Source: Methanomassiliicoccales archaeon LGM-RCC1 (GTDB taxonomy: Archaea > Thermoplasmatota > Thermoplasmata > Methanomassiliicoccales > Methanomethylophilaceae). Taken from it: a stretch of 64,000 nucleotides of DNA. The stretch's first letter is position 1. The number at the start of each line of letters is the position of its first letter. The stretch is taken from NCBI GenBank assembly GCA_030168575.1, contig CP115555.1, forward strand, positions 496,001 through 560,000, read 5' to 3'. A program made the translations under genes and the position numbers. The notes below the pieces were generated by a model. The model was not told the origin of the DNA and did not search any database. It saw only the letters and a program-made list of their open reading frames with translations. This document shows, piece by piece, positions 695 to 42,977 of the stretch.

Positions 695-801
695 GATTGC
701 CTAGACATATTGCTGATTTATATGCGTTCCTAGTTTTGTATTTTTAATTTAAAATCACAAAACTAGAATTGTTTATAACCTATCGTCAGAATATTGTAAC
801 G

Positions 802-2457
802 ATGAGTGCGGATACTAAAAAGACCAGATATAGAAGTTCCAAAAGGAAAATCTGGGTACTTAATCATCTGTTTAACAACCTGTATCGTCCAGCAATGCTG
901 AATGAATACATGAGCGATAATAACCGCATAAGATTCGACAATTTTGGAATCGTTATCGACGATGCAAACGATCAAGAAATTCCTATTCTCAACTCAATTA
1001 ATGGAATGGTTGGATGCTATAAAGTCCAAATAGGCGGATCTGAATCGAAATCTACGCTTTATTCGAACTTTCTTGATATTTGCAATTCATTGGAAGATGA
1101 TGGGTTGATAAAATCCAAATCGCGCAGGAGTAACCAATACAGATTCTTCCCTATAGAAAGTTCTGAAACCTTTGTAAAATATCTGAACATACTATATTCG
1201 AATAATGACGACAAGGTCGAGAATCACATCTTGAAGAATTCTGTTTATTATCATCTGATGGTCAACAGACAACTGGTTCTGAATCTGCTCAAATCAAATG
1301 ATATCAAAATCAGAATGGATTAGGTTTACGACGGCGACCTTTATTCTATGACGGTACCAACGTTAGGAAGATTCCGTAAAATATTCGAAATGAGCAATGA
1401 AATGGATCTATTCATTAGTAAATTGATGGATGTCAAAAATACTCTTTCAAATTCCCCGAGCGGGACTAAGGATATCGTTGAAAAACTCTTCTCCAATCAG
1501 AAAAAAGTCAAATGTATCGAGAAGAAAAAACTCGGTAAGAAGGAATGCTCGGAGATGTTATCATCCATTTCAAACCTGGTAGAACACCTAAGGAAAATAA
1601 AGGATGAAATGGAAAGCCTTTCAGAATTGGCTCTTGAAAAAGAATGTCTTTCTAATGAAACGTATAATCCTCTAGATTGGTTCATAACTGATCAAAAACT
1701 ATTCAGACGTGAAGCATTCTGGGAAGAACTGATCTTATCAGAAGATGAGAGAAAAATTCTCGAATCCGCAACCATCATAAAATGCGGCAAAGATGGATAG
1801 GAACAATCTGATGACAGGATTGTCCGTGATTTGTTCCTAGATTGTTACCCGCTCTATCTGGAAAACAACTTCATCCTACCAATATTCTGTCTTTTGGAGA
1901 TCTCGCCAACAGCAGCTGAAAAGATTCTGATTAACAATATGGATGAATTCTCAATCAAAGGGAAAACATTCGTTCTGAATTATCGCACAGACACGTACAG
2001 TATACTGTTGGATCGGTTGCTGCTTCTTACTCTCAACGATGTATTGAACGGCAGAACACTGTACGACTTTAAGGAGCATATGATAAGATACCAAAACAAC
2101 AAAACCAGCCTATATCGTATCGGTGAGTTGTATCATAACGGAACAATCTATCCCGCATTGCTAACATTCAGATTGAACAGAGGACGTTATCTGGCCTTCC
2201 GGCACAGCTTGCCTGATACGAATGATCAACTGCCGTTTCTCATTTCGTTTGAAATAATGGAGATGGAAGAACTAGATCGTCCAGGCGGACTGCCCATCGA
2301 GATTCCGTCGATCGCATATATCGGTAACGATAGACCGCCATTATGGTTCTATGAATTGCTCAATGATTACATCACAGACGGAAGGAACCAGGCCCCACCC
2401 TATCTAGAAAATCTTCTCAATTTGTGGATGTTGGATGATCTTCCAAAAAGAAAATGA
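802..2457 (+). CDS. protein of unknown function crossed by two in-frame TAG codons
   Basis: Three consecutive open stretches lie in one frame and are separated only by TAG codons at 1321-1323 and 1798-1800. The frame ends at TGA. Reading through both gives about 550 residues with amber positions near 174 and 333. The second stretch would lack any start for 24 nt and the third has only a TTG 30 nt in, so three independent genes in the same frame are unlikely. The N-terminal part is basic and may be DNA-binding (residues 1-130). The middle is a Lys/Glu-rich, coiled-coil-like segment. The C-terminal 200 residues are a compact, hydrophobic-rich domain. No family is recognised. The DNA is AT-rich compared with the core genes. 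A pseudogene with two nonsense mutations is the alternative. Confidence 0.6.
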
Positions 2458-4207: not shown

Positions 4208-5296
4208 TTATTTGTTCGATTTATAAGCCAAAGCACATCTGTCAGATCTTAGTTCACAATTATCACAAATTGTTTCGTGCCCAACTATGGGTGAAATCAA
4301 ATAATCTTCATTCATGAGACAGAAACCGAATCCATATTCTTCACACAGCGTTATTATCTTAGCCTTATCCGAATCAGATGTATTGCATCCAATTATGACG
4401 TGCCTTATCCATTCATTTATGCCTTGATAATACAAATGTGCATAACCATCATCCTCAATAGCAAAGCATTCTGGATCTAATGTACCAATTATCGAACTAC
4501 GCCACTCATGCTCCCAACTATACTTCCTTTGTTTGATGTATATCCTGGCTAAAAAATCCGCCATCGAATCATAATAGAATCCTTCGAATTCTCTGAATCT
4601 CCCTTTGATAAACATCTTTTCTAAGCGTTTCTTCTTCCCTTTCATACGGATTTTACTGCTGTAATAAATCTTATGCAGAGATGGGATTCCTTCACTTTCT
4701 ATACATAAGGCTGCAGTTCTGAATTGCTTTCCAGCCCAACGGCTGTCTTCATCGTCCTTCGAATCCGCAGCAACGTCGTCGGTAAAGCAGCATATATGGA
4801 GATTTCCGTAGATGTCGTCATAATATGATTTGAATGAGTGCAGGTTTTCACGTACTTTGTGCTTATCATCATCTGAAATGTCTTTCTTTTTCTCCACCTC
4901 ATCCATGAATGCTTTTATCGCCGATTCGGAGAACACCTTGCGGTTGGAATTGCGAAGAGATGCTAAGTCTGGATCCTTCTTGTCATTGAAGTTAACTGGG
5001 CGTGAATATCTGATCTTATCGTTTTCGATAGTTTTTATCACATATTCAGGTTCTAGGCAACGATATACGAAGCGTGGCGGAACAGCACAATACGCCTTGC
5101 TGACAGGTCTGAAGCGATTGTCATCTGCTTTGGAAAAGACATCCTGGATGCATCCATTTTGTTCGAAATCGGTCTTCAATTCTTTTAGATTATCCGCCAT
5201 GGATTGGATATTGGATAATATCTTGTCGTTCCTCTTCGGGTCCTTTAAGGCCTTTGCAATCATCTTAGGCAGAGCGCATTGGCGTTGTGAAGTCAT
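4208..5296 (-). CDS. DUF2971 family protein
   Basis: About 362 residues if started at the ATG at 5296; the frame stays open a further 30 codons upstream. The domain begins around residue 100 with FVYRCLEPEYVIKTIENDKI and RYSRPVNFNDKKDP, the DUF2971 signature (Lys/Arg-Tyr, then a fND motif). It continues with HICCFTDD, DSRWAGKQF and a late YSWEHEWRSSI block. DUF2971 proteins occur often in defence islands and next to toxins; their activity is not established. A second member of the family lies at 7496-8572 in this window, again with an N-terminal extension. AT-rich; ends with TAA. Confidence 0.7.
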   Translation of the reverse strand: MTSQRQCALPKMIAKALKDPKRNDKILSNIQSMADNLKELKTDFEQNGCIQDVFSKADDNRFRPVSKAYCAVPPRFVYRCLEPEYVIKTIENDKIRYSRPVNFNDKKDPDLASLRNSNRKVFSESAIKAFMDEVEKKKDISDDDKHKVRENLHSFKSYYDDIYGNLHICCFTDDVAADSKDDEDSRWAGKQFRTAALCIESEGIPSLHKIYYSSKIRMKGKKKRLEKMFIKGRFREFEGFYYDSMADFLARIYIKQRKYSWEHEWRSSIIGTLDPECFAIEDDGYAHLYYQGINEWIRHVIIGCNTSDSDKAKIITLCEEYGFGFCLMNEDYLISPIVGHETICDNCELRSDRCALAYKSNK

Positions 5297-5445
5297 GCAA
5301 TACCAGGTGGGGGATTTCAGTCGTATACTTAAATCAGAGGATACGATGGAACTCCCGGGCGGAGTTTCAGAGTGACTGGCCATCACGGGCGGACCCGTGC
5401 TTCAGAACAGGATTCCGGCACTCTGTCATCCCTGGGAGATATCCC

Positions 5446-6270
5446 ATGGGACAGAATAAAACTATCGACGGAAGAGTCGGAGACCCGTCCAAAAGTACAC
5501 AGGACGGGCGGGAAAAAGAACTGCAATATGAAAGACACTTGATGATCGGCGGTTACGAGAACCCCGTTCAGACCATGCCCTCGGGAGAGGGGAACTTCTA
5601 CTTCGAGACCAGCGATCCCGGGGCCATCGACAGCTTCTACGCCCCGGACGCGGACAGGCTGCTCAGGCACATCTACCGCGAATTGGGGACCGTGGACATT
5701 GTGAGGATGCACGGCTACACATGGTCGGTCGAGGATTCGGAGATGATCCGATATGATGACATCGTCGATTTCGATTCTAAGTATGTGAATCCCGACGGAT
5801 CCCGGGGGATATGGATCTACAGGAACTCCGACATGAGGATGGAGGATACGCTGAACGCCGCCAAGGACCTTGATACGGTGGTGAGAGAGGTACGGGAGAT
5901 CGTCTCCGGGAAGGAGGTCACGTCCTACAATGTGAAATTCGATTTCGGGAAGTTCCTGTATCAGGAGCCGTTGAACATCCGTAACATTGTGACGAGGAAG
6001 ATCGACATCATGAAGCTCGCTACTACCAAGGTGTACGAGCTGGCGGATTCGGATTCGATTGAGGATAAAGGATTACAGGAGAGGCTGCTGAGGGAGAGGG
6101 AGGATTCCTACTATCCCGAGAAGTGGGTGAGATCCATAGACGCGTACCGTGTGCTGTGTCCGGAGGACCCGATGGGGCTGGAGGGGATGAGGCACAGGGC
6201 GATAGACGATGCGGTTATGGAGGGGTGGATACTCAAATCCTTATCCCAACAGATCAATCCGGAATCGTAA
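5446..6270 (+). CDS. DEDDh exonuclease-like protein
   Basis: The protein (about 274 residues from the ATG at 5446) shows the later landmarks of the RNase T / DnaQ exonuclease fold: a TSYNVKFDFGKFL block matching motif II and RHRAIDDA matching the His-x4-Asp motif III near the C terminus. The first motif, normally Asp-x-Glu, is not seen where expected: the strand reads DIVRMHGYTW. The enzyme may be inactive, or the first acidic pair may come from the FYFETSD segment further upstream. The stop codon directly abuts the ATG of the DUF3800 gene, so the two form one unit. Confidence 0.55.
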   Translation: MGQNKTIDGRVGDPSKSTQDGREKELQYERHLMIGGYENPVQTMPSGEGNFYFETSDPGAIDSFYAPDADRLLRHIYRELGTVDIVRMHGYTWSVEDSEMIRYDDIVDFDSKYVNPDGSRGIWIYRNSDMRMEDTLNAAKDLDTVVREVREIVSGKEVTSYNVKFDFGKFLYQEPLNIRNIVTRKIDIMKLATTKVYELADSDSIEDKGLQERLLREREDSYYPEKWVRSIDAYRVLCPEDPMGLEGMRHRAIDDAVMEGWILKSLSQQINPES

Positions 6271-7437
6271 ATGGCATACGATAAGGAATCCAAAACCCGG
6301 GAACAAATCGACATCTGGCAGTCGGTCAAGGAAGGACACATCGAGAATCCGCCAGTAAAAGGATGGTTGTTTTATTACGACGAGACCAACAACTTCAGGA
6401 GGTTCAGGTTCGATCCGGAGAAACAATCGGGTTACAATGTCGAGAGGGCATTAACATACGATTTCATTCTCGGCGGCATAGCGTTCGATCCCGGGAAGAA
6501 ACCCGATGCTGAAGAACTGATGGACAGGCTAGGGATTCAGAAGGAGAACGAACTGAAAGCGGGTTCGATTCTGAAGAATAGGGATTTCATGAAGGATATC
6601 GGCCTGAAGAGGGTCCACACGTTCCTGGAATGGATGCTGGATTCCGGCGTCATCGTCCACTTCTCCACATTGAACAACCTGTACTGGTCAATCATAGATC
6701 TGGTCGACGAGGCCTTGATTACCGAGGCGGGCCGTGTGATGATGCCTTTCCACAAGATAATGAAAGACCAGCTGTTCTACTTCGTCATGGGCCACCTGGA
6801 CGAGATGACGTACATCCTCCAGGGTTACGGATTCCCCAATTTGGACAACGAGGACATAGATCCATTCGCTAGGGCGGTATCGGATTTCATCCAAGAGAAC
6901 AGCTACGATGATACGCCCGAATTATTCTATCTCGAGGCAACCAGGCAGCTTATAAAGGATCTGAGGAGAGAAAAGGAGATGACCTTCCTCTCAGGCGGGG
7001 AGCCGGGCGTGATGATCGATTCCTACGAATGGGAATATGTGGATGCCATGCAGAAAACACCCAATGCTTTCCATCGTTTCGACCACGAGAGTACGGTGGA
7101 AAAGAGTCTGAGGAAGTACGATCTGCTGGAAGACGGGAAACCGTACGAAGGATACGAGTTTGTCGATTCCAAGGAGAACAGGTTTGTTCAGATTAGCGAT
7201 GTGTTCGTCGGGATACTAAGCGAACTGTTTCATCACACGGATTCCCTAATGCTTGAAGGAAGGGATTCGATCCCCAGGCCGACGAAGGAACAGGCATACG
7301 GGATACATCTCCTGAAGAAGGTTATAACGAAGTCGGAAGAGATATCCATTTACCTTCAGAGACATCTGTGCCCAGAGAAATACAGGGAGTTTAGATACGA
7401 GTTCCTTGAGATCGTTGATTATTTCTGGAAAGAATAA
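6271..7437 (+). CDS. DUF3800 protein, long form
   Basis: 388 residues. The N-terminal GWLFYYDETNNFRRF motif with its conserved Asp-Glu, an FILGGIAF strand, an ELKAGSI motif and a C-terminal FVDSKENRFVQISDVFVG motif are the hallmarks of DUF3800. The family is predicted to have an RNase H-like fold with Asp/Glu catalytic residues and is common in mobile and defence regions. The ATG follows the stop of the exonuclease-like gene with no gap, so co-translation is expected. A short, amber-interrupted DUF3800 relative occurs at 42198-42977. Confidence 0.75.
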   Translation: MAYDKESKTREQIDIWQSVKEGHIENPPVKGWLFYYDETNNFRRFRFDPEKQSGYNVERALTYDFILGGIAFDPGKKPDAEELMDRLGIQKENELKAGSILKNRDFMKDIGLKRVHTFLEWMLDSGVIVHFSTLNNLYWSIIDLVDEALITEAGRVMMPFHKIMKDQLFYFVMGHLDEMTYILQGYGFPNLDNEDIDPFARAVSDFIQENSYDDTPELFYLEATRQLIKDLRREKEMTFLSGGEPGVMIDSYEWEYVDAMQKTPNAFHRFDHESTVEKSLRKYDLLEDGKPYEGYEFVDSKENRFVQISDVFVGILSELFHHTDSLMLEGRDSIPRPTKEQAYGIHLLKKVITKSEEISIYLQRHLCPEKYREFRYEFLEIVDYFWKE

Positions 7438-7495
7438 TGGTTTTTCACCTTTCGATTTCCCACAAATCAATATCTTACAATCTTAATGAGGGGTT

Positions 7496-8572
7496 GTGAA
7501 GACTAGATTTAATGTGGTGCCCGACGATACTATTCGTCAAGAATTCAAAAAGGCAAGAGGTCGCGTGATGCGTGACCCCGATGTCAGAGAGTACCTTCAC
7601 AGAAGACCTATCGTTTGGACGAAGTTACGGATTGCATTCTGGAGAATCAACCCTACAGCAAGCAAAAATCTCAAGGAAATCTAGGATAGGAGTGTCAAAG
7701 GATACAAACGTCTTGTAGATGCGCAGATACAGTCTCTCGATGACACAGTAGAGCAATACGCGAAATCACACAGTACACCCTATTATTCTGAAGAAAAACC
7801 TGCCCTGCTATGCAAATACATGCCCAAAGGCCATGCAGTAGACAATATACTCAACTCGGTGACTAAATTTGGAAGCGTGGGCGAGTACAGAAGAGATGAT
7901 CATATGGAATGCAAGCTCCCGATTGCACCAGAGATGAATACTAATGATTTTTTGGATGTGGTTAGAGCACGGATCCTAAAAGCAATGCTCGAGGAGCAGA
8001 ATTTGGATATAATCTCCATTTGGAACAGTGTCCAGGATGCGATGGAAAACAATGTTTTCATCGGTAGTTTCTCGGATGGTAATAATCCGGAATATATGTG
8101 GCACGAATACGCTAAGGACGATGGCGTCTGTGTTTGGTTTGAACCGGATTATACAAAGTTGAAACTGGTCGTTTATTCCGACTATCTCGCGAAAGCGGAT
8201 GATTTGAGAGAAAAATACGGTCAGATGATGCTTCGTATAGCAAAGGAAGGTTTCGACTCAATCAAGGATGATCTCGAATCTTCGACCAAGGAAATCATCA
8301 ATCTGTCCCACATGTCTTTTTACACGAAGAAACCGGAATTTGACAAAGAAACAGAATGGAGGCAACTGGTTTCTTGCAGCGATCCTTCTAGAATCAAATT
8401 GGATGAGGATGGTTACAAATTCATCGTGGAATCAATCCCGGGACGCATTGTTAAAGTCGAATCCCGTTTGCCAGAAAAGGAACATGGTTGGCTCATAGCG
8501 GGGATCGATTCAAAAATTGAGGTCACACAAACAAAATCTACAACTCCCTCTGATACAATTGTCTTCCCTTAG
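7496..8572 (+). CDS. DUF2971 family protein with an in-frame TAG
   Basis: A GTG start after GAGGGG opens a frame that meets TAG at 7682-7684 (codon 63) and then continues in the same frame for almost 300 codons. The part after the TAG has the DUF2971 signature: LLCKYMPKGHAVDNILNSV, VFIGSFSDGN, YMWHEYAKDDGVCVWF and KETEWRQL. No start codon follows the TAG until ATG at 7820, which would lie within the first conserved motif, so the family needs sequence from before that ATG. The annotated end is also a TAG (8570-8572); seven more codons lead to TGA at 8594. Either the ambers are read through or the gene is damaged. It is AT-rich and sits directly before the restriction-modification genes. Confidence 0.65.
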
Positions 8573-8696
8573 TGGAATGATTTCGATAGGGTATGAAATA
8601 CAAACACTCTTTGCTGTAATTGGAGGGTTTTGAGAGACGCATCAATAGGGTTCTTTGAATAGATTTATTTGTTAAATTCAATATTCCTTTTTGTTC

Positions 8697-9827
8697 ATGA
8701 GTTCGTTTAGATTTGCAGATTTGTTTGCCGGATGCGGGGGGCTCAGTCTTGGAATGGAACAAGCTGGATTCAAATTAGTATTTGCCAGTGACATAGATCC
8801 CGTCTGCTCTAACACATTCATAAAAAATCGTAACATTTCAGAAGAACAGATGTTTATAGGCGACATTGCAGATCTAAATGACCACATCGAGGACTACTCG
8901 GATTATCTCAAAGACATTGACCTAGTATGTGGTGGTCCGCCTTGTCAAGGTTTTTCAATGGCTAACCGTCAGCGTTTGATTGATGATCCCCGCAATATCC
9001 TATACAAAGAATATTTGAGATTCCTGGACCACGTTCGTCCCAAATATTTCATCATGGAAAATGTAAAAGGGATGTTGAACAAAATTGGAGAAATTTTCGA
9101 GGACATAAAAAACATTCTTGGAAATGAGTATGACGTATCTTACTCTGTTTTCAACGCCAAAGATTACGGTGTCCCCCAGAACAGGGAGAGGCTTATCGTT
9201 ATTGGAAATAGAATGGGTATATCTTCAGATTCAATCATCGCAGATATACGTTCCAAGTCAGATTCGTGCCCTCGTTTTGTTCTCCGCGATGCATTAAAAG
9301 GTCTCCCCCCATTGATGCCCAATAGACAGAAAAACAGCAGTTCCATTGAAAATGACGAAGTCGGATACTTTGCCAGAGATTACAAGTATGAAATGGACGA
9401 GTTCTATAGATTCATTAATGGGGACAGGAAGATTGAATCCCTATATAATCATAAGAACCGGTACAACAACAATCGCGACATTGAGATATTTACGAGGTTG
9501 CCCCAGGGGGCAAATTCGCTTCACCCTAGTATCAAAGATATAATGCCTTACGCATCACGTAACGACATTTTCAAGGACAAATATTTCAAACTCAAAGAGG
9601 ACGAAGTCTGCAAGACTATTACCTCCCACATGAAGTTTGATTGTAATATGTACATTCATCCCACACAAGCTAGAGGGCTATCCCCCCGTGAGGCCGCCCG
9701 CATCCAAACCTTCCCCGACGATTTTATCTTCTACGGGGCACAAAACAGTTGGTATAAGCAAGCTGGAAACGCCGTGCCAGTAAAATTGGCCCAAGCTATC
9801 GGAGAAGAGGTCATTAAACATTTATGA
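8697..9827 (+). CDS. DNA cytosine-5 methyltransferase 1
   Basis: 376 residues with every C5-methyltransferase landmark: FAGCGGLSLGMEQAG (motif I, AdoMet binding), GGPPCQGFSMANRQ (motif IV, catalytic Cys near residue 84), MENVKGM (motif VI), PQNRERLIVIG (motif VIII) and KQAGNAVPVKLA (motif X). The variable target-recognition region lies between VIII and X. The ATG at 8697 was chosen over the TTG at 8691. Its last codons overlap the ATG of the second methyltransferase (ATGA), so the two are coupled. Two neighbouring C5 enzymes with one nuclease suggest an asymmetric target whose strands are modified separately. Confidence 0.93.
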   Translation: MSSFRFADLFAGCGGLSLGMEQAGFKLVFASDIDPVCSNTFIKNRNISEEQMFIGDIADLNDHIEDYSDYLKDIDLVCGGPPCQGFSMANRQRLIDDPRNILYKEYLRFLDHVRPKYFIMENVKGMLNKIGEIFEDIKNILGNEYDVSYSVFNAKDYGVPQNRERLIVIGNRMGISSDSIIADIRSKSDSCPRFVLRDALKGLPPLMPNRQKNSSSIENDEVGYFARDYKYEMDEFYRFINGDRKIESLYNHKNRYNNNRDIEIFTRLPQGANSLHPSIKDIMPYASRNDIFKDKYFKLKEDEVCKTITSHMKFDCNMYIHPTQARGLSPREAARIQTFPDDFIFYGAQNSWYKQAGNAVPVKLAQAIGEEVIKHL

Positions 9828-10894
9828 AACAATTAGAACTTTTTTCCGGTGTGGGTGGTTTCCGCCAGGCCTCAGAATTATTGGAAATCGACTTCGGAGT
9901 GGAATTCAAAACTGTTGGGTATTCAGAGATAGACGTCAACGCTAAGAGGACATACAACAGTGTCTTCGATACAAATGGCGAGATGGATATCGGCGATATA
10001 GTTGAATTCAACAGCGACGAATCGAACATTAAGAGCATCCCAGATATCAGTTTGATAACAGGCGGATTTCCTTGTCAGCCATTCAGTATGATGGGTAAGC
10101 AGAAAGGTTTTGATGATGATCGTGGCAACCTTTTCTTCGAAATAATGAAAATCGTACGTATCAAGAAGCCCCGTTACATTCTTCTTGAAAACGTAAAAAA
10201 TCTCAAAACACACGATTCGGGAGATACCCTCAGCGTCATTATCAGCACTCTTGAATCCGCAAACTATAGGGTAAAAATGGATATTTTCAACACGTCTGAT
10301 TACGGTCTTGCTCAAACTCGCAATAGGATCTACATATTCGCGTATCCCAAATCTATGGGAGACATTGATTTTTCAAACGGTGTCGTGAAAACTACTTTCG
10401 ATAAAATTGAGAGAAAGACCTCGATAATGAAGCAAGATAACACACACGAGGTGCTTTCTAAGTCAGTTGATGCCAAATATTTCTTATCCGAAAGGATAAA
10501 ACCGACTATTCTCGCAAATGGATCGAAGAATTTCCAATCCCGTTCGGAGATCAATCAACTAATTGCCCGTCCGTTAACCGCTACAATGGCTAAAATGCAC
10601 AGGGCCTGCCAAGACAATTATTTCAGTACGGGATATATCGAATCAGACAATCCCGAGGAATATGTTAAAAAACAATTCTCCAAAGAAGAGTTGGCAAAAC
10701 AGCCAATTAGGAGAATAACTCCTAGAGAAGCTTTTGCTTTACAAGGTTTTGACTCTACTTACTTCGATAAGGTTGAAACATCGGGAGTTTCTGATTGTCA
10801 GTTATACAAACAAGCAGGAAATGCGGTCAGCGTAAACACCGTCTATGCAATATTATATTATCTTTTCGTGCATTTACATCTAACTGATGAGTGA
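9824..10894 (+). CDS. DNA cytosine-5 methyltransferase 2
   Basis: 356 residues with motif I LELFSGVGGFRQASE, motif IV GGFPCQPFSMMGKQKGF (catalytic Cys near residue 83), motif VI LLENVKNL, motif VIII AQTRNRIYIFA and motif X KQAGNAVSVNTV. It is too diverged from the first methyltransferase to be a recent duplicate, which fits two different target strands. It overlaps its upstream partner by 4 nt and its downstream nuclease by 8 nt; all three form one operon. Confidence 0.93.
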   Translation: MKQLELFSGVGGFRQASELLEIDFGVEFKTVGYSEIDVNAKRTYNSVFDTNGEMDIGDIVEFNSDESNIKSIPDISLITGGFPCQPFSMMGKQKGFDDDRGNLFFEIMKIVRIKKPRYILLENVKNLKTHDSGDTLSVIISTLESANYRVKMDIFNTSDYGLAQTRNRIYIFAYPKSMGDIDFSNGVVKTTFDKIERKTSIMKQDNTHEVLSKSVDAKYFLSERIKPTILANGSKNFQSRSEINQLIARPLTATMAKMHRACQDNYFSTGYIESDNPEEYVKKQFSKEELAKQPIRRITPREAFALQGFDSTYFDKVETSGVSDCQLYKQAGNAVSVNTVYAILYYLFVHLHLTDE

Positions 10895-11969
10895 TATTTC
10901 AAACCCTTCACAATCCATAGAAATCTACGACCAGATTATTGGCTTAAAAAAGCTGAGTGGCGCTGATCTAGGGCACGAGTCGACTCATCAAACCCATATC
11001 GGTTTAATCAATAGTATCTTTAAGTTTTTTGAGGATGACGATGAGGCCGAATCGATTCTGCTGTACGATCAGATGTCAAAAACACTTCCAGCGAGTTATC
11101 ACAGAATTCAGCCGTCTGGGGGAGGATCTGGACGTAGCATCGGTCTTCGTACAGGCATAAACCAAGATGCTAGTTTGCTGAAGACAATACGTGAAATCTG
11201 TCGGAAGAAGGATTGCGGATGGTATCTTATTTGGTTCAGTCTGATTGATAAAACGCCCGTTTTTATACTATTCGATTCGGAGTCGGATATATACAAATGT
11301 CTTGTTAAAAACGGAATTAACCCCGATAAACGCATCTCGAAGGGCATATCTTCTGACGATAATCGTTATAGGACGATTCTTTCCTGCATTAATCCGATTT
11401 TGACTGAGTATCTGGGCGGAATGGACAAAGAGTTGGAAATCGCTGTTCAGACAGGTAATCAAAAAACCCGCTTCACTCACAAGAACTACGTAAAAGCATC
11501 AAAGAGGATGCAAGAAATCGGTCGTGAAGGCGAGGAAATAATCAACCGGTATTTCCAAGAATTACGTACTCAGAAGAAAATAGATGAATACGAATGGAAG
11601 AACAAAGATGGTGAAAGCGGCGAACCGTATGACTTTATCGTAAAAAAATCGGATGAAATCGTATATCTCGACGTAAAGACCACGGGGTACGATTTCTCAC
11701 GCCCAATGGTCTTCAGTAAGCAGGAAATAGATTTTGTTGCCAATAGCGGTAGCAATTATGCCATTTACAGGGTATATCGCGGCAACAATGCCAAGTATTG
11801 CTTAAGAGTGTGTTCCAATTCAAAAGAGAATTTCCAGAAAATCGACACGATATTGAAGGAATGTGCTGAACGCTTGAAGTTGTTAACAACACTTGAAACA
11901 GCCAAACTTACCATAGATCCAAACAGCAACGACCTATTGTTCGACGAGGAAATCAATCTTGATTTTTGA
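10887..11969 (+). CDS. putative type II restriction endonuclease, PD-(D/E)XK fold
   Basis: 360 residues. The C-terminal part has GEPYDFIV followed by IVYLDVKTTG (residues about 243-264), the Asp ... Asp-x-Lys pattern of a PD-(D/E)XK nuclease, close to the DUF3883 type of domain. The following FSKQEIDFV matches that domain's last helix. The N-terminal 180 residues (with GGGSGRS and WYLIWFSL) are probably the DNA-recognition part. The gene overlaps the second methyltransferase by 8 nt, the usual arrangement of a restriction gene, so the modification enzymes are made first. Confidence 0.75.
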   Translation: MSDISNPSQSIEIYDQIIGLKKLSGADLGHESTHQTHIGLINSIFKFFEDDDEAESILLYDQMSKTLPASYHRIQPSGGGSGRSIGLRTGINQDASLLKTIREICRKKDCGWYLIWFSLIDKTPVFILFDSESDIYKCLVKNGINPDKRISKGISSDDNRYRTILSCINPILTEYLGGMDKELEIAVQTGNQKTRFTHKNYVKASKRMQEIGREGEEIINRYFQELRTQKKIDEYEWKNKDGESGEPYDFIVKKSDEIVYLDVKTTGYDFSRPMVFSKQEIDFVANSGSNYAIYRVYRGNNAKYCLRVCSNSKENFQKIDTILKECAERLKLLTTLETAKLTIDPNSNDLLFDEEINLDF

Positions 11970-12030
11970 TATCGGTTTATGATTTGAGAGACGTCATCGA
12001 TTCTATTGAACAATTGATTGAACTCGTCAT

Positions 12031-12603
12031 TCAAAACAATCTGGTCTGGTTGAAATCCTCTTCTCCAGATTCATAAACAATCCGGGAATCTGCTATAACC
12101 TCTTTGCTGACGCATACATTCCATGCACGCATCCGTGAATGCCATTTTTTGTGTCTAACAAACGCATCCCAGTCCAGTTGATAGATTGCTTTCAACCGGT
12201 AATTGCGATCCAGGCGGCATATCACCAGATAATCGAACATCTTCTCGTCTGGCACGTTTTCGTCCGGTGTATGGAGCCCGTAAATTACACCCGTGACTGA
12301 GCCGGTTGTGGTTTTGATACTGTACATTTTTCCGTTACGGCCGATGGCATCGACGTTTTTGGTTCCTGTAGCCGCAGGGGTTAGGTTGGGAAGTGTCGTA
12401 TCTTTTTTGTACTGTTCCATTACAAGATATTCTCCCAAATCCCCCACAACGTTATTGGTACGGATTACGTTACGTTCCTTCAAAAGAGCTATGCAGTCGC
12501 CGTAAGCTTCTATTAACTCCCCCGTTTCCAAATTCGAGAGATCAAGTGACATCGTAAATGTAAGCTGCAGCATTGTATTTAGCTGCGCTGCTAAAGAGGT
12601 CAC
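12031..12603 (-). CDS. DUF6998-like protein, putative nuclease-fold
   Basis: 190 residues from a GTG preceded by TAGGAT. The core reads GDLGEYLVMEQY, then TKNVDAIGRNGKMYSIKTTTG: a Glu, an Asp and a Lys spaced as in PD-(D/E)XK-like domains found near restriction genes. An alternative start is the ATG at 12573. It converges with the restriction endonuclease gene (61-bp gap) and may be an accessory nuclease or specificity factor. The function is inferred from fold-like motifs and place only. Confidence 0.55.
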   Translation of the reverse strand: MTSLAAQLNTMLQLTFTMSLDLSNLETGELIEAYGDCIALLKERNVIRTNNVVGDLGEYLVMEQYKKDTTLPNLTPAATGTKNVDAIGRNGKMYSIKTTTGSVTGVIYGLHTPDENVPDEKMFDYLVICRLDRNYRLKAIYQLDWDAFVRHKKWHSRMRAWNVCVSKEVIADSRIVYESGEEDFNQTRLF

Positions 12604-13090: not shown

Positions 13091-15658
13091 TCAATCCCAA
13101 CCCATTTTCGAGAATATCTCCCTGATATCTTCGTCAGATGAAGAGAGCACCCCCTCCAGTTTACCTGTCTCGATGGCCTCTTTCATTATGGTTTCCTTGA
13201 TCTTCAGACGATTGTAGATCTCATCATCCAATGATGTGGAATGCCCACTGCTGATGCCGTCCAACATCATCCCGCCGTAAGTCACCTTCATGAAGCGGTG
13301 CTGCGTGTACTGATCATCAGACAGACCCAATCTGTGTATGCGGTCCTTGGACTGGAGCAAGTGGACCAGATTATAGCTGTACTCGTAGTAAATGGTGTCA
13401 TGGCATACAGTATGTAATGAAACCGATTCTGCCAAAGTATGTGGATTCGTGATGAGCACAGAGAACCTGCCACCCTTGAAATCATTGATGATCCTGGAGC
13501 GCTCATGCACCGGGACACTACCATCGATGCTCTCACAGGAGATGCCCTCTGCGCCCAGAAGATCCTTGATGTTGTATATGGATTTCCTGAAGATGCACCA
13601 TACTATGACGGTTTTGCCCTCCCTGACGAGCATCGATACCTGATCTATGCATAATCTGGTCTTTGAGGTAACACCAATCTTTGAGATCACCGGAGCCAAA
13701 TCCTTAAGGGATGGCAGCAGCGTTGCCATGACATCCGGATTGTAGTCATCGGTTGATTCATCCTTGAAGCTCTGCACCAATTCGTCAGGGACCTCGTCCT
13801 TCAACAGCATACTCGGATCCGATTCCGCCTGGAGAAGGCGGATGATCCATGTCAGCGGATTGCCTGCACAGACTTCCTTTATCCTGCTGTAGAGCAGATT
13901 CTCCTCATTGGTTGATTCCACAAGTATCTGGATATCCGGATTCTCCGGCGGCACCCCCAAATCATCCTTACTCGTCCTGCAGTAGAACGGTTGGATCTTG
14001 TCATTGATGTCCTGTATCACAGATTGAGTGGGGTTCCGAAGAGAAGAAAGATCGTATTTGAAATATGAACCGTACTCCTTAGGGAAGAGGATATGCAGTA
14101 TGCTGTAGAGATCTGAATACGAATTGGGCATAGGAGTACCTGTGAGGACCAACGTGCGCGTCGATTCCTCCGCTACCATCCTGGATGCCGCAGACCTCTT
14201 GGTGCTCCAGCCCTTGATGTAGTGACCCTCATCGAAGACCAGCAGGCATTTTGATATGAGGTACTCATTGAGGGCGGATGCGTATTTCCAGAGGCTCTGA
14301 TAGTTTATCAGAACCATATCCACGGTGGCATAGCTGTTGAAGAATGCCGCCAGAGAAGATGTTCCCTGATGATCTCTGGAATCGAACACTTTGGGTTCCC
14401 GACCGAACATCGCCCTGTACTCTGAAATCCAGGAATCGAATGAGTTTAATGGGCACACCACCACCATGTTCAGAAGATTGGATGTCGACTTGAGGTAAGC
14501 TAATACCCCCAGGACAGATGCTGTCTTTCCCGATCCCGGTACTGAGAAGTTACCGGCCTTCATCATCGCATACATGAAGAATGAGTCCCACATCTGCTGA
14601 TCGTACAGATGCCTCACACTGGCCTCATCGACTGTCTTTTTGTATACGATGAACTCGTTCATGATGTTGTGAGCGCGGTTCTTGATATCAATCCCTAACT
14701 TCCTTCTCTTCTGTATGATGAGATCGTGTGAATTGATGTAATCCATCAACCTCTTGGAGACTGCTAACCTTATGTCCTTGTCATGGCAGTATGAGCCGAG
14801 GTTACTGATAATGCGCTGGAAGGAGATGTAATCTAGATCCTTGCGGAATACTATCTCCTTGTCGAATGATGATACGAACCTTTTGATATCAGACTTATAG
14901 ACGATTGCATAATTGGTTGGAGGATTGTCTAGACGGTTGTCGAGAACTATCGTGCTACCATCGAAATCCAGAAAGATGCAATTCTTCGTCTTATCGATCT
15001 CGTCTATCACAGCCACGCCGCCATGGGAATGGCTTTTAATCTCCTTCCAAACAACCTCTGAAGGTTTCTTGACGATCATTCCAGGCTTATCATCGTTCCA
15101 CATCCTCTCAAAATTCTCCTTATGTGAATCGAATGATTCGTATCTTCTGAAATCGAAGCTCTCGTAATTCTCTTCGATTGCCGCTGCTGTCTCATTATTG
15201 GATCCAAGCATCAGCATCGCATCGCCATCATAGCCCTCAGCATACCCCCATTTGTAATGGAAAATCCCCTTGCGAACTAGTGCAATCTTGATCTCGACCA
15301 CACCGGCTGAAATCAGATCCGTTAGAATCTGAAGAGAATCCTCCTCATCCAATGTGAGATCCTCGCGCAGACGGCTCAGGAACATGGGATCCAGATCCTC
15401 GAGACTCTTCTCTCCCTTGGTTATAGCATCGAAATCCTCTTTTTCGATGTCTTCAGACACGATGAGCCTATACTTCGAATCGGGCTTGTGTACGAACTCA
15501 ACGAGGCCCTGCGAGTATGCTGCCAAAGCTTTCGAAGAGAAATAGCAGGATACACGGTCGAACCTCTTTGCAGCTCTGAAGAACGGAATGTAGAAATCAT
15601 TCAGCAAATCCTTCTCGGAGGAGTCGTAGTATCCTTGCAACTCATCTAGTCTGGTCAT
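13091..15658 (-). CDS. PLD-domain SNF2-family helicase
   Basis: 855 residues. The N-terminal domain is PLD-like: FYIPFFRAAKRFDRVSCYFSS, an HxK pair in FHYKWG (near residue 133) and GSNNETA. A SNF2-type helicase follows, with Walker A GSGKTAS (near 373), DEGH (near 474), LTGTPMPNSYSDL, and a C-terminal RecA domain ending in QSKDRIHRLG (near 769). Such enzymes translocate on double-stranded DNA and occur in restriction and anti-phage systems. It is the last gene of a three-gene minus-strand operon and overlaps the ParB-like gene by 17 nt. It is neither DrmA nor a type III Res subunit by layout. Confidence 0.85.
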   Translation of the reverse strand: MTRLDELQGYYDSSEKDLLNDFYIPFFRAAKRFDRVSCYFSSKALAAYSQGLVEFVHKPDSKYRLIVSEDIEKEDFDAITKGEKSLEDLDPMFLSRLREDLTLDEEDSLQILTDLISAGVVEIKIALVRKGIFHYKWGYAEGYDGDAMLMLGSNNETAAAIEENYESFDFRRYESFDSHKENFERMWNDDKPGMIVKKPSEVVWKEIKSHSHGGVAVIDEIDKTKNCIFLDFDGSTIVLDNRLDNPPTNYAIVYKSDIKRFVSSFDKEIVFRKDLDYISFQRIISNLGSYCHDKDIRLAVSKRLMDYINSHDLIIQKRRKLGIDIKNRAHNIMNEFIVYKKTVDEASVRHLYDQQMWDSFFMYAMMKAGNFSVPGSGKTASVLGVLAYLKSTSNLLNMVVVCPLNSFDSWISEYRAMFGREPKVFDSRDHQGTSSLAAFFNSYATVDMVLINYQSLWKYASALNEYLISKCLLVFDEGHYIKGWSTKRSAASRMVAEESTRTLVLTGTPMPNSYSDLYSILHILFPKEYGSYFKYDLSSLRNPTQSVIQDINDKIQPFYCRTSKDDLGVPPENPDIQILVESTNEENLLYSRIKEVCAGNPLTWIIRLLQAESDPSMLLKDEVPDELVQSFKDESTDDYNPDVMATLLPSLKDLAPVISKIGVTSKTRLCIDQVSMLVREGKTVIVWCIFRKSIYNIKDLLGAEGISCESIDGSVPVHERSRIINDFKGGRFSVLITNPHTLAESVSLHTVCHDTIYYEYSYNLVHLLQSKDRIHRLGLSDDQYTQHRFMKVTYGGMMLDGISSGHSTSLDDEIYNRLKIKETIMKEAIETGKLEGVLSSSDEDIREIFSKMGWD

Positions 15659-42197: not shown

Positions 42198-42977
42198 ATG
42201 GAGTGTAACATCGTTTTCATGGATGAATCCGGCAGTGGTTCAAAGAGTAAAGGAAAGGTCAATTATTGGGTGACTGTTGGAGTATTATCAAGTTTGGACA
42301 ATCATTAGAAAATAACGGAAGAATTACACGCTATAACAAAGAAAAATATGAGACTCTATAATAGAGAACTGAAAGGGACGGACATTTCTAGGAATCATTT
42401 AAATCCTGGAGTTGACAAGATGTCTGTTGCTAAAGATATTTCTGATCTGATATTAAGGTACAATATGACTGTTTTTGTGACCGCTTCTAATATGTCACCT
42501 GCGATAAAGAGATTAGAAAAAAAGTTTACAGCTTCCAATGTTAAAAATGGATTGCAAGCTAAGGATATTGCCAGGGAGTTGCTATTAGAACGCATATCGA
42601 TTTCTCTAAATTATAAAAGAACTAAAGACATGCTTAACTTGCTGGTCTGGGATCTTTCTGATAATAATGAATTAGCTGATTTTAGTGCTATAACGGGATC
42701 ATATACGAATCCGCATGATCATAAGAAGCTCAACTGCACCATTGTACCACATATTTTAGGTGGCTTGTCACACGATTGGGCAGAATTACAGATTGCAGAT
42801 TTAATTTCCAATTATGCATTGAATTATGTGGCAGATGGAATTTATATCGATGCCGACAGGGAAAAAAGTGAAGCATTCAAAAAATACCTGTATCCTGTAT
42901 TGCATTGCGACAAAAATGGAAAGATTGAAGGCGTAGGTTTTAAAAAGATTTTTAATGAGTTAGAACGACGCGATTGA
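42198..42977 (+). CDS. DUF3800 protein, short form, with an in-frame TAG
   Basis: The ATG at 42198 opens with NIVFMDESGSG, the DESG motif of DUF3800. The frame meets TAG at 42306-42308 (codon 37) and then continues, unbroken, for 222 codons that contain ELKGTD, LLVWD and AELQIADLISNYALNYVADG, the remaining motifs of the family. The DESG and ELKG motifs belong to one domain, so both halves must be joined to make the protein. The frame ends in TGA. AT-rich DNA unlike the neighbouring operons points to lateral transfer. Readthrough of TAG gives 259 residues; a nonsense mutation is the alternative. Confidence 0.7.

Follow-up and report, generated by a model that had tools for sequence, protein, structure and literature searches.

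An in-frame TAG probably read as pyrrolysine in a DUF2971 gene of a candidate archaeal defence island

The reading of TAG as pyrrolysine (Pyl) in genes other than those of methyltransferases is already known in the Methanomassiliicoccales. Borrel et al. (2014) predicted 16 further genes with an in-frame TAG, cas1 included, in Candidatus Methanomethylophilus alvus, where TAG makes up 1.6% of the stops, and argued that in-frame ambers turn into stable mutations in such a host (PMC4153887). For the rumen methanogen ISO4-H5, a 2016 report counts 46 genes with in-frame ambers, among them housekeeping, CRISPR (Cas3), and hypothetical genes and 10 insertion sequences (PMC5011839). The host of the locus described here belongs to the same order as M. 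alvus and likewise has a pyl cassette, a low share of TAG among its stops, and TAGs beyond the methylamine methyltransferases; DUF2971, however, is not named among the 16 genes of M. alvus (PMC4153887), whereas here one of its homologues carries six TAGs and another three. The occurrence of in-frame TAGs across gene classes is also like that in ISO4-H5, which is a different genome, and the consulted passages of that report neither mention DUF2971 nor state the TAG load of single genes (PMC5011839). The DUF2971 case is, then, a new example and not a new phenomenon; what is new is the existence of TAG-dense DUF2971 homologues, of two further TAG-containing genes in the same stretch of DNA, and, tentatively, of a predicted ADP-ribosyltransferase-like fold. 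An all-TAG Pyl genetic code has reportedly been described in some archaea, and is not used as evidence here.

In the literature searched, DUF2971 was mentioned in one paper, a genome reannotation. The protein studied here has in common with the family (PF11185; PDC-S31 in PADLOC) the core motifs, a profile match near the cut-off, and a defence-island setting, but adds to them an N-terminal helical extension of some 95 residues and a TAG codon.

The gene lies in a window of 64,000 nucleotides (that is, the whole stretch of DNA that was analysed) from a Methanomassiliicoccales genome consisting of a single contig of 1,664,211 bases (1.66 Mb), of which it covers positions 496001-560000. Its coordinates, and those of the features around it, are given in Table 1. 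The frame contains neither a TAA nor an internal TGA nor a frameshift between its GTG and the TGA at codon 367, and its second TAG is followed by seven codons and this TGA. An earlier reading, made from the sequence alone, had described this ending, as well as a frame that continues past codon 63 through the full DUF2971 domain, and both descriptions hold (the PF11185 match covers residues 201-289). The same reading had placed the only later ATG in the first conserved block; the next start after codon 63 is indeed the ATG at 7820 (codon 109), within the conserved LCKYMPKGHAVDN block, but further in-frame ATGs and GTGs occur deeper in the gene. The start codon itself is uncertain: GTG 7496, 7514, 7517, or 7565 or ATG 7568 (codons 1, 7, 8, 24, and 25) could serve, and all of these are located 5' of the codon-63 TAG. 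The explanation that we prefer, with a probability of about 0.87, is that this TAG is read through as pyrrolysine.

Table 1. Features of the window, in order of position
Feature	Position	Strand	Remarks
Gene interrupted by TAG at codons 185 and 344 of the frame	769..2457	+	homologues in G014 and G025 open through both
Second PDC-S31 (DUF2971-like) gene	4208..5386	-	no TAG inside; PADLOC PDC-S31
DUF3800 gene (PDC-S51)	6271..7437	+	58 nt upstream of the DUF2971 gene
DUF2971 (PADLOC PDC-S31) gene, TAG probably read as pyrrolysine	7496..8596	+	366 residues; end TGA 8594-8596
Internal TAG, codon 63	7682..7684	+	AAG (Lys) in G013 homologue; within predicted helix, residues 38-79
C-terminal domain, about residues 97-346	7784..8533	+	tentative ADP-ribosyltransferase-like fold; invariant E287, R289 (E-x-R), W202, G210, Y227
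TAG, codon 359	8570..8572	+	eight codons 5' of TGA
C5-cytosine DNA methyltransferase	8691..9827	+	
Second C5-cytosine DNA methyltransferase	9824..10894	+	
Protein with a NOV_C domain and a TmtA-like C-terminus, presumed to be part of the restriction system	10887..11969	+	
Predicted methyl-directed restriction enzyme (mREase_II)	12031..12603	-	
DUF3800 gene, in-frame TAG 42306-42308 inside domain	42198..42977	+	Pfam match only if TAG is read

That the host reads TAG, as the sequence-only reading had supposed, and reads through codon 63 is well supported by a complete pyrrolysine cassette, by the rarity of TAG as a stop, and by the TAG-laden homologues described below. PylS, PylB, PylC, and PylD all score over the NCBIfam cut-offs in this genome, in which a tRNA-Pyl with a CUA anticodon adjoins pylS. 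In a 484 kb sample of the genome, the 422 predicted genes end in TGA (90.3%), TAA (7.6%), or TAG (2.1%, nine genes), and five of these nine TAG-ended genes continue as coding sequence past the TAG. The share of TAG is similarly low in two genomes of the same genus (2.8% and 1.7%) and reaches 25.5% in the control, a relative of the order from another family. In the same genome, an IS110 transposase gene and a TetR regulator gene also have in-frame TAGs with domain evidence across or around them. An Rfam search for a recoding element 3' of the codon-63 TAG gave no match, and RNA folding of the same region predicted no stable structure; such signals have been reported not to be obligatory (PMC4153887).

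The strongest comparison comes from a search of 60 relatives. It revealed, in a different species of the genus (G013), a homologue that is 47% identical over residues 10-344; it has six TAGs and neither TAA nor TGA within its frame, which ends in a TGA. This gene (L009, 353-1396, minus strand; the same gene is in L008) has a TAG load far above that of the rest of the sampled G013 genome. A second homologue, in another genus of the family (G070; L069, 1327-2430, minus strand), has three in-frame TAGs, one of which falls inside the MW-x-x-YA motif. If such stops arose from sense codons by single-base routes, the probability that all of them would be TAG is about 0.009 for the six in the former and about 0.02 for the three in the latter. 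A search of viral contigs and plasmids for TAG-bearing DUF2971 homologues found none.

The homology extends to the part of the gene that precedes the TAG. The 62 codons upstream of it align with the N-terminus of the G013 homologue with a score of 64, which none of 5000 shuffles reached (22.4 +/- 4.1), and the identities at the three codon positions (0.45, 0.55, and 0.33) follow a coding pattern, in which the third positions have diverged the most. Against the more remote L055 and L056, the score of the window's N-terminus was reached by 706 and 261 of 5000 shuffles, respectively, and is not significant alone; that of the G013 N-terminus with L055 is significant (two of 5000).

The homology 5' of the TAG and the TAG-rich homologues together argue against chance and against two other explanations. 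One supposes that the gene decayed recently into a pseudogene or that its sequence contains an error, the TAG leaving a protein of 62 residues and no functional product. This would fit with the single clearly internal TAG of the window copy, with the lower conservation of the N-terminus (28% against 50%), and with the apparent dispensability of the island, which a search did not detect in another genome from the host's species. Nevertheless, we consider it improbable, given a host with a full Pyl cassette that seldom ends its genes with TAG, a frame free of other interruptions, and a family that lives with ambers, as the homologues with six and three TAGs and no other stops attest. The other is that translation starts after the TAG, at the ATG of codon 109, and yields a 250-residue DUF2971 core. 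The ATG is there, the PF11185 match lies entirely downstream of it, and some DUF2971 proteins have no long N-terminal extension; but such a start would sacrifice the conserved LYKY block (the first conserved block) and would leave the homology of the N-terminal part to that of G013 to be explained, while the TAGs of the G013 gene are distributed along its entire length so that no internal start rescues that homologue. This explanation is very improbable.

If the TAG is instead decoded as pyrrolysine by the host's PylRS and tRNA-Pyl, a single protein of about 350-366 residues would be made, with translation ending at the TGA or, on occasion perhaps, eight codons short of it at the second TAG. 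The codon-359 TAG says little alone and may be either a stop or a read-through codon. It lies in a tail of low confidence in the AlphaFold2 model (pLDDT below 50 from residue 350), and the earlier suggestion that two ambers in one short gene betray a special adaptation is not supported. Opposite the codon-63 TAG, the G013 homologue has AAG, so that the TAG probably arose from this lysine codon by a single base change in a host in which an amber in a coding frame would cost little; the Pyl residue would then be a tolerated substitute for lysine and not a functional residue. Opposite the six TAGs of G013, the window gene has AGA, TTT, CCG, AAG, TGG, and GAA. Since the TAG positions are not conserved among the DUF2971 homologues, TAG appears to be an ordinary, tolerated sense codon in these genes. 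The homologues offer a clean comparative case: their ambers differ in position and face ordinary sense codons. This supports the view that TAG serves widely as a sense codon and not only at a few special enzyme sites.

A variant of the pyrrolysine explanation is that the TAG also acts as a regulatory switch, with translation stopping at codon 62 if Pyl is in short supply and a full-length effector appearing when the cassette is active. Constant production of an ADP-ribosyltransferase-like effector could be harmful, and the DUF2971 homologues of the family contain more in-frame TAGs than do its C5 methylases and chaperonins: TAGs are present in three of the approximately eight DUF2971 genes found (numbering one, six, and three), whereas across 102 genomes of the family, C5 methylases have a TAG in four and a TGA in one of the approximately 107 stretches listed, and chaperonins have no stop in any among the matches listed. 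This higher load is suggestive, with the DUF2971 genes being few and the TAGs within one gene not independent. Against a switch are the absence of TAG from most of the DUF2971 homologues in the family, the lack of conservation of the TAG positions, and the presence of TAGs in housekeeping genes, and we regard it as unlikely to the same degree as a pseudogene. Little credence is likewise given to the more general idea that the DUF2971 effectors of Pyl-decoding archaea have been selected for several ambers, such that they are full-length only with an active pyrrolysine system; this could take the form either of a switch gated by the supply of Pyl or of a lock that would silence the gene in non-Pyl hosts after transfer.

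The gene may form one operon with the DUF3800 gene upstream, and is followed by genes for DNA methylation and predicted restriction. A DNA search with the region 5287-12603, run without a positive control, covered one genome from the host's species and six from its genus and gave no match; the region therefore looks like a strain-variable defence island. The wider defence region includes a large helicase-like protein (13091-15658, minus strand) that matches the PADLOC models PbeA and ZorD. The sequence-only reading had taken the restriction-modification neighbours as a sign of adaptation to a TAG-reading host; this is not supported, and in-frame TAGs also occur in non-defence genes, for example those for citramalate synthase and D-lactate dehydrogenase in G013. 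It had further proposed an alignment with the PDC-S31 relative at 4208-5386; this protein belongs to the same family, but its N-terminal extension has no similarity to that of the window protein and is uninformative about the TAG.

The protein would thus be a DUF2971 member of a putative defence island, and most likely an ADP-ribosyltransferase-like effector, although the odds of this role taken alone are nearer to even. The PF11185 match is close to the cut-off of 22 bits (21.8 bits for the whole frame and 23.4 bits in the genome search) but is more than chance. The match to PDC-S31 has an E-value of 5e-4 for the window protein and of 1e-6 to 1e-13 for the TAG-bearing homologues, and a D, a G, a Y, an E, and an R are invariant over nine aligned DUF2971 members. 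Two AlphaFold2 models were made, one of the full protein (six sequences, pLDDT 68) and one of the C-terminal domain (nine sequences, pLDDT 76). The former is helical over residues 10-92. In both models, the best structural alignments are with structures of the ADP-ribosyltransferase superfamily, with Tpt1/KptA and DarT leading. Those with Tpt1/KptA have Z-scores of 9.4 (103 residues, 3.0 A, full model) and 7.5 (105 residues, 3.1 A, domain model), which are near the background level stated by the alignment tool, and those with DarT have Z-scores of 6.1 to 6.5 across both models. A Foldseek search with both models gave no match with an E-value below 0.001, and a sequence search with the window protein against solved structures gave no match. 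Hence, although the structural alignments of the modelled residues 97-346 favour Tpt1/KptA and DarT, the window protein differs from them in having no sequence match to solved structures, its ADP-ribosyltransferase activity is putative, and the fold is a tentative lead. If it is correct, it would suggest an activity for the defence-candidate family DUF2971, in which the glutamate and the arginine of the E-x-R motif would be the first candidate functional residues.

The codon-63 TAG is not the only such codon in the window, in which standard gene calling splits or shortens three genes, a warning that defence and accessory genes of the order are broken in this way. The frame at 769-2457 comprises 562 codons, becomes three ORFs under the standard code, and its product has no Pfam, NCBIfam, or PADLOC match. 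In G013, the citramalate synthase gene (L038, 4514-6085, plus strand) and the D-lactate dehydrogenase gene (L009, 5381-6364, minus strand) each have one domain-supported in-frame TAG. A frame with 13 TAGs (L013, 591-2474) is probably spurious, having a low-complexity translation and no domain match. The second DUF3800 gene of the window loses its Pfam match if the start is placed 3' of its TAG. The idea that it belongs to an inverted-repeat element was set aside for want of convincing terminal repeats. This gene is nearly identical in G105 and G013, the same TAG included, which is consistent with a recent transfer or a shared mobile segment.
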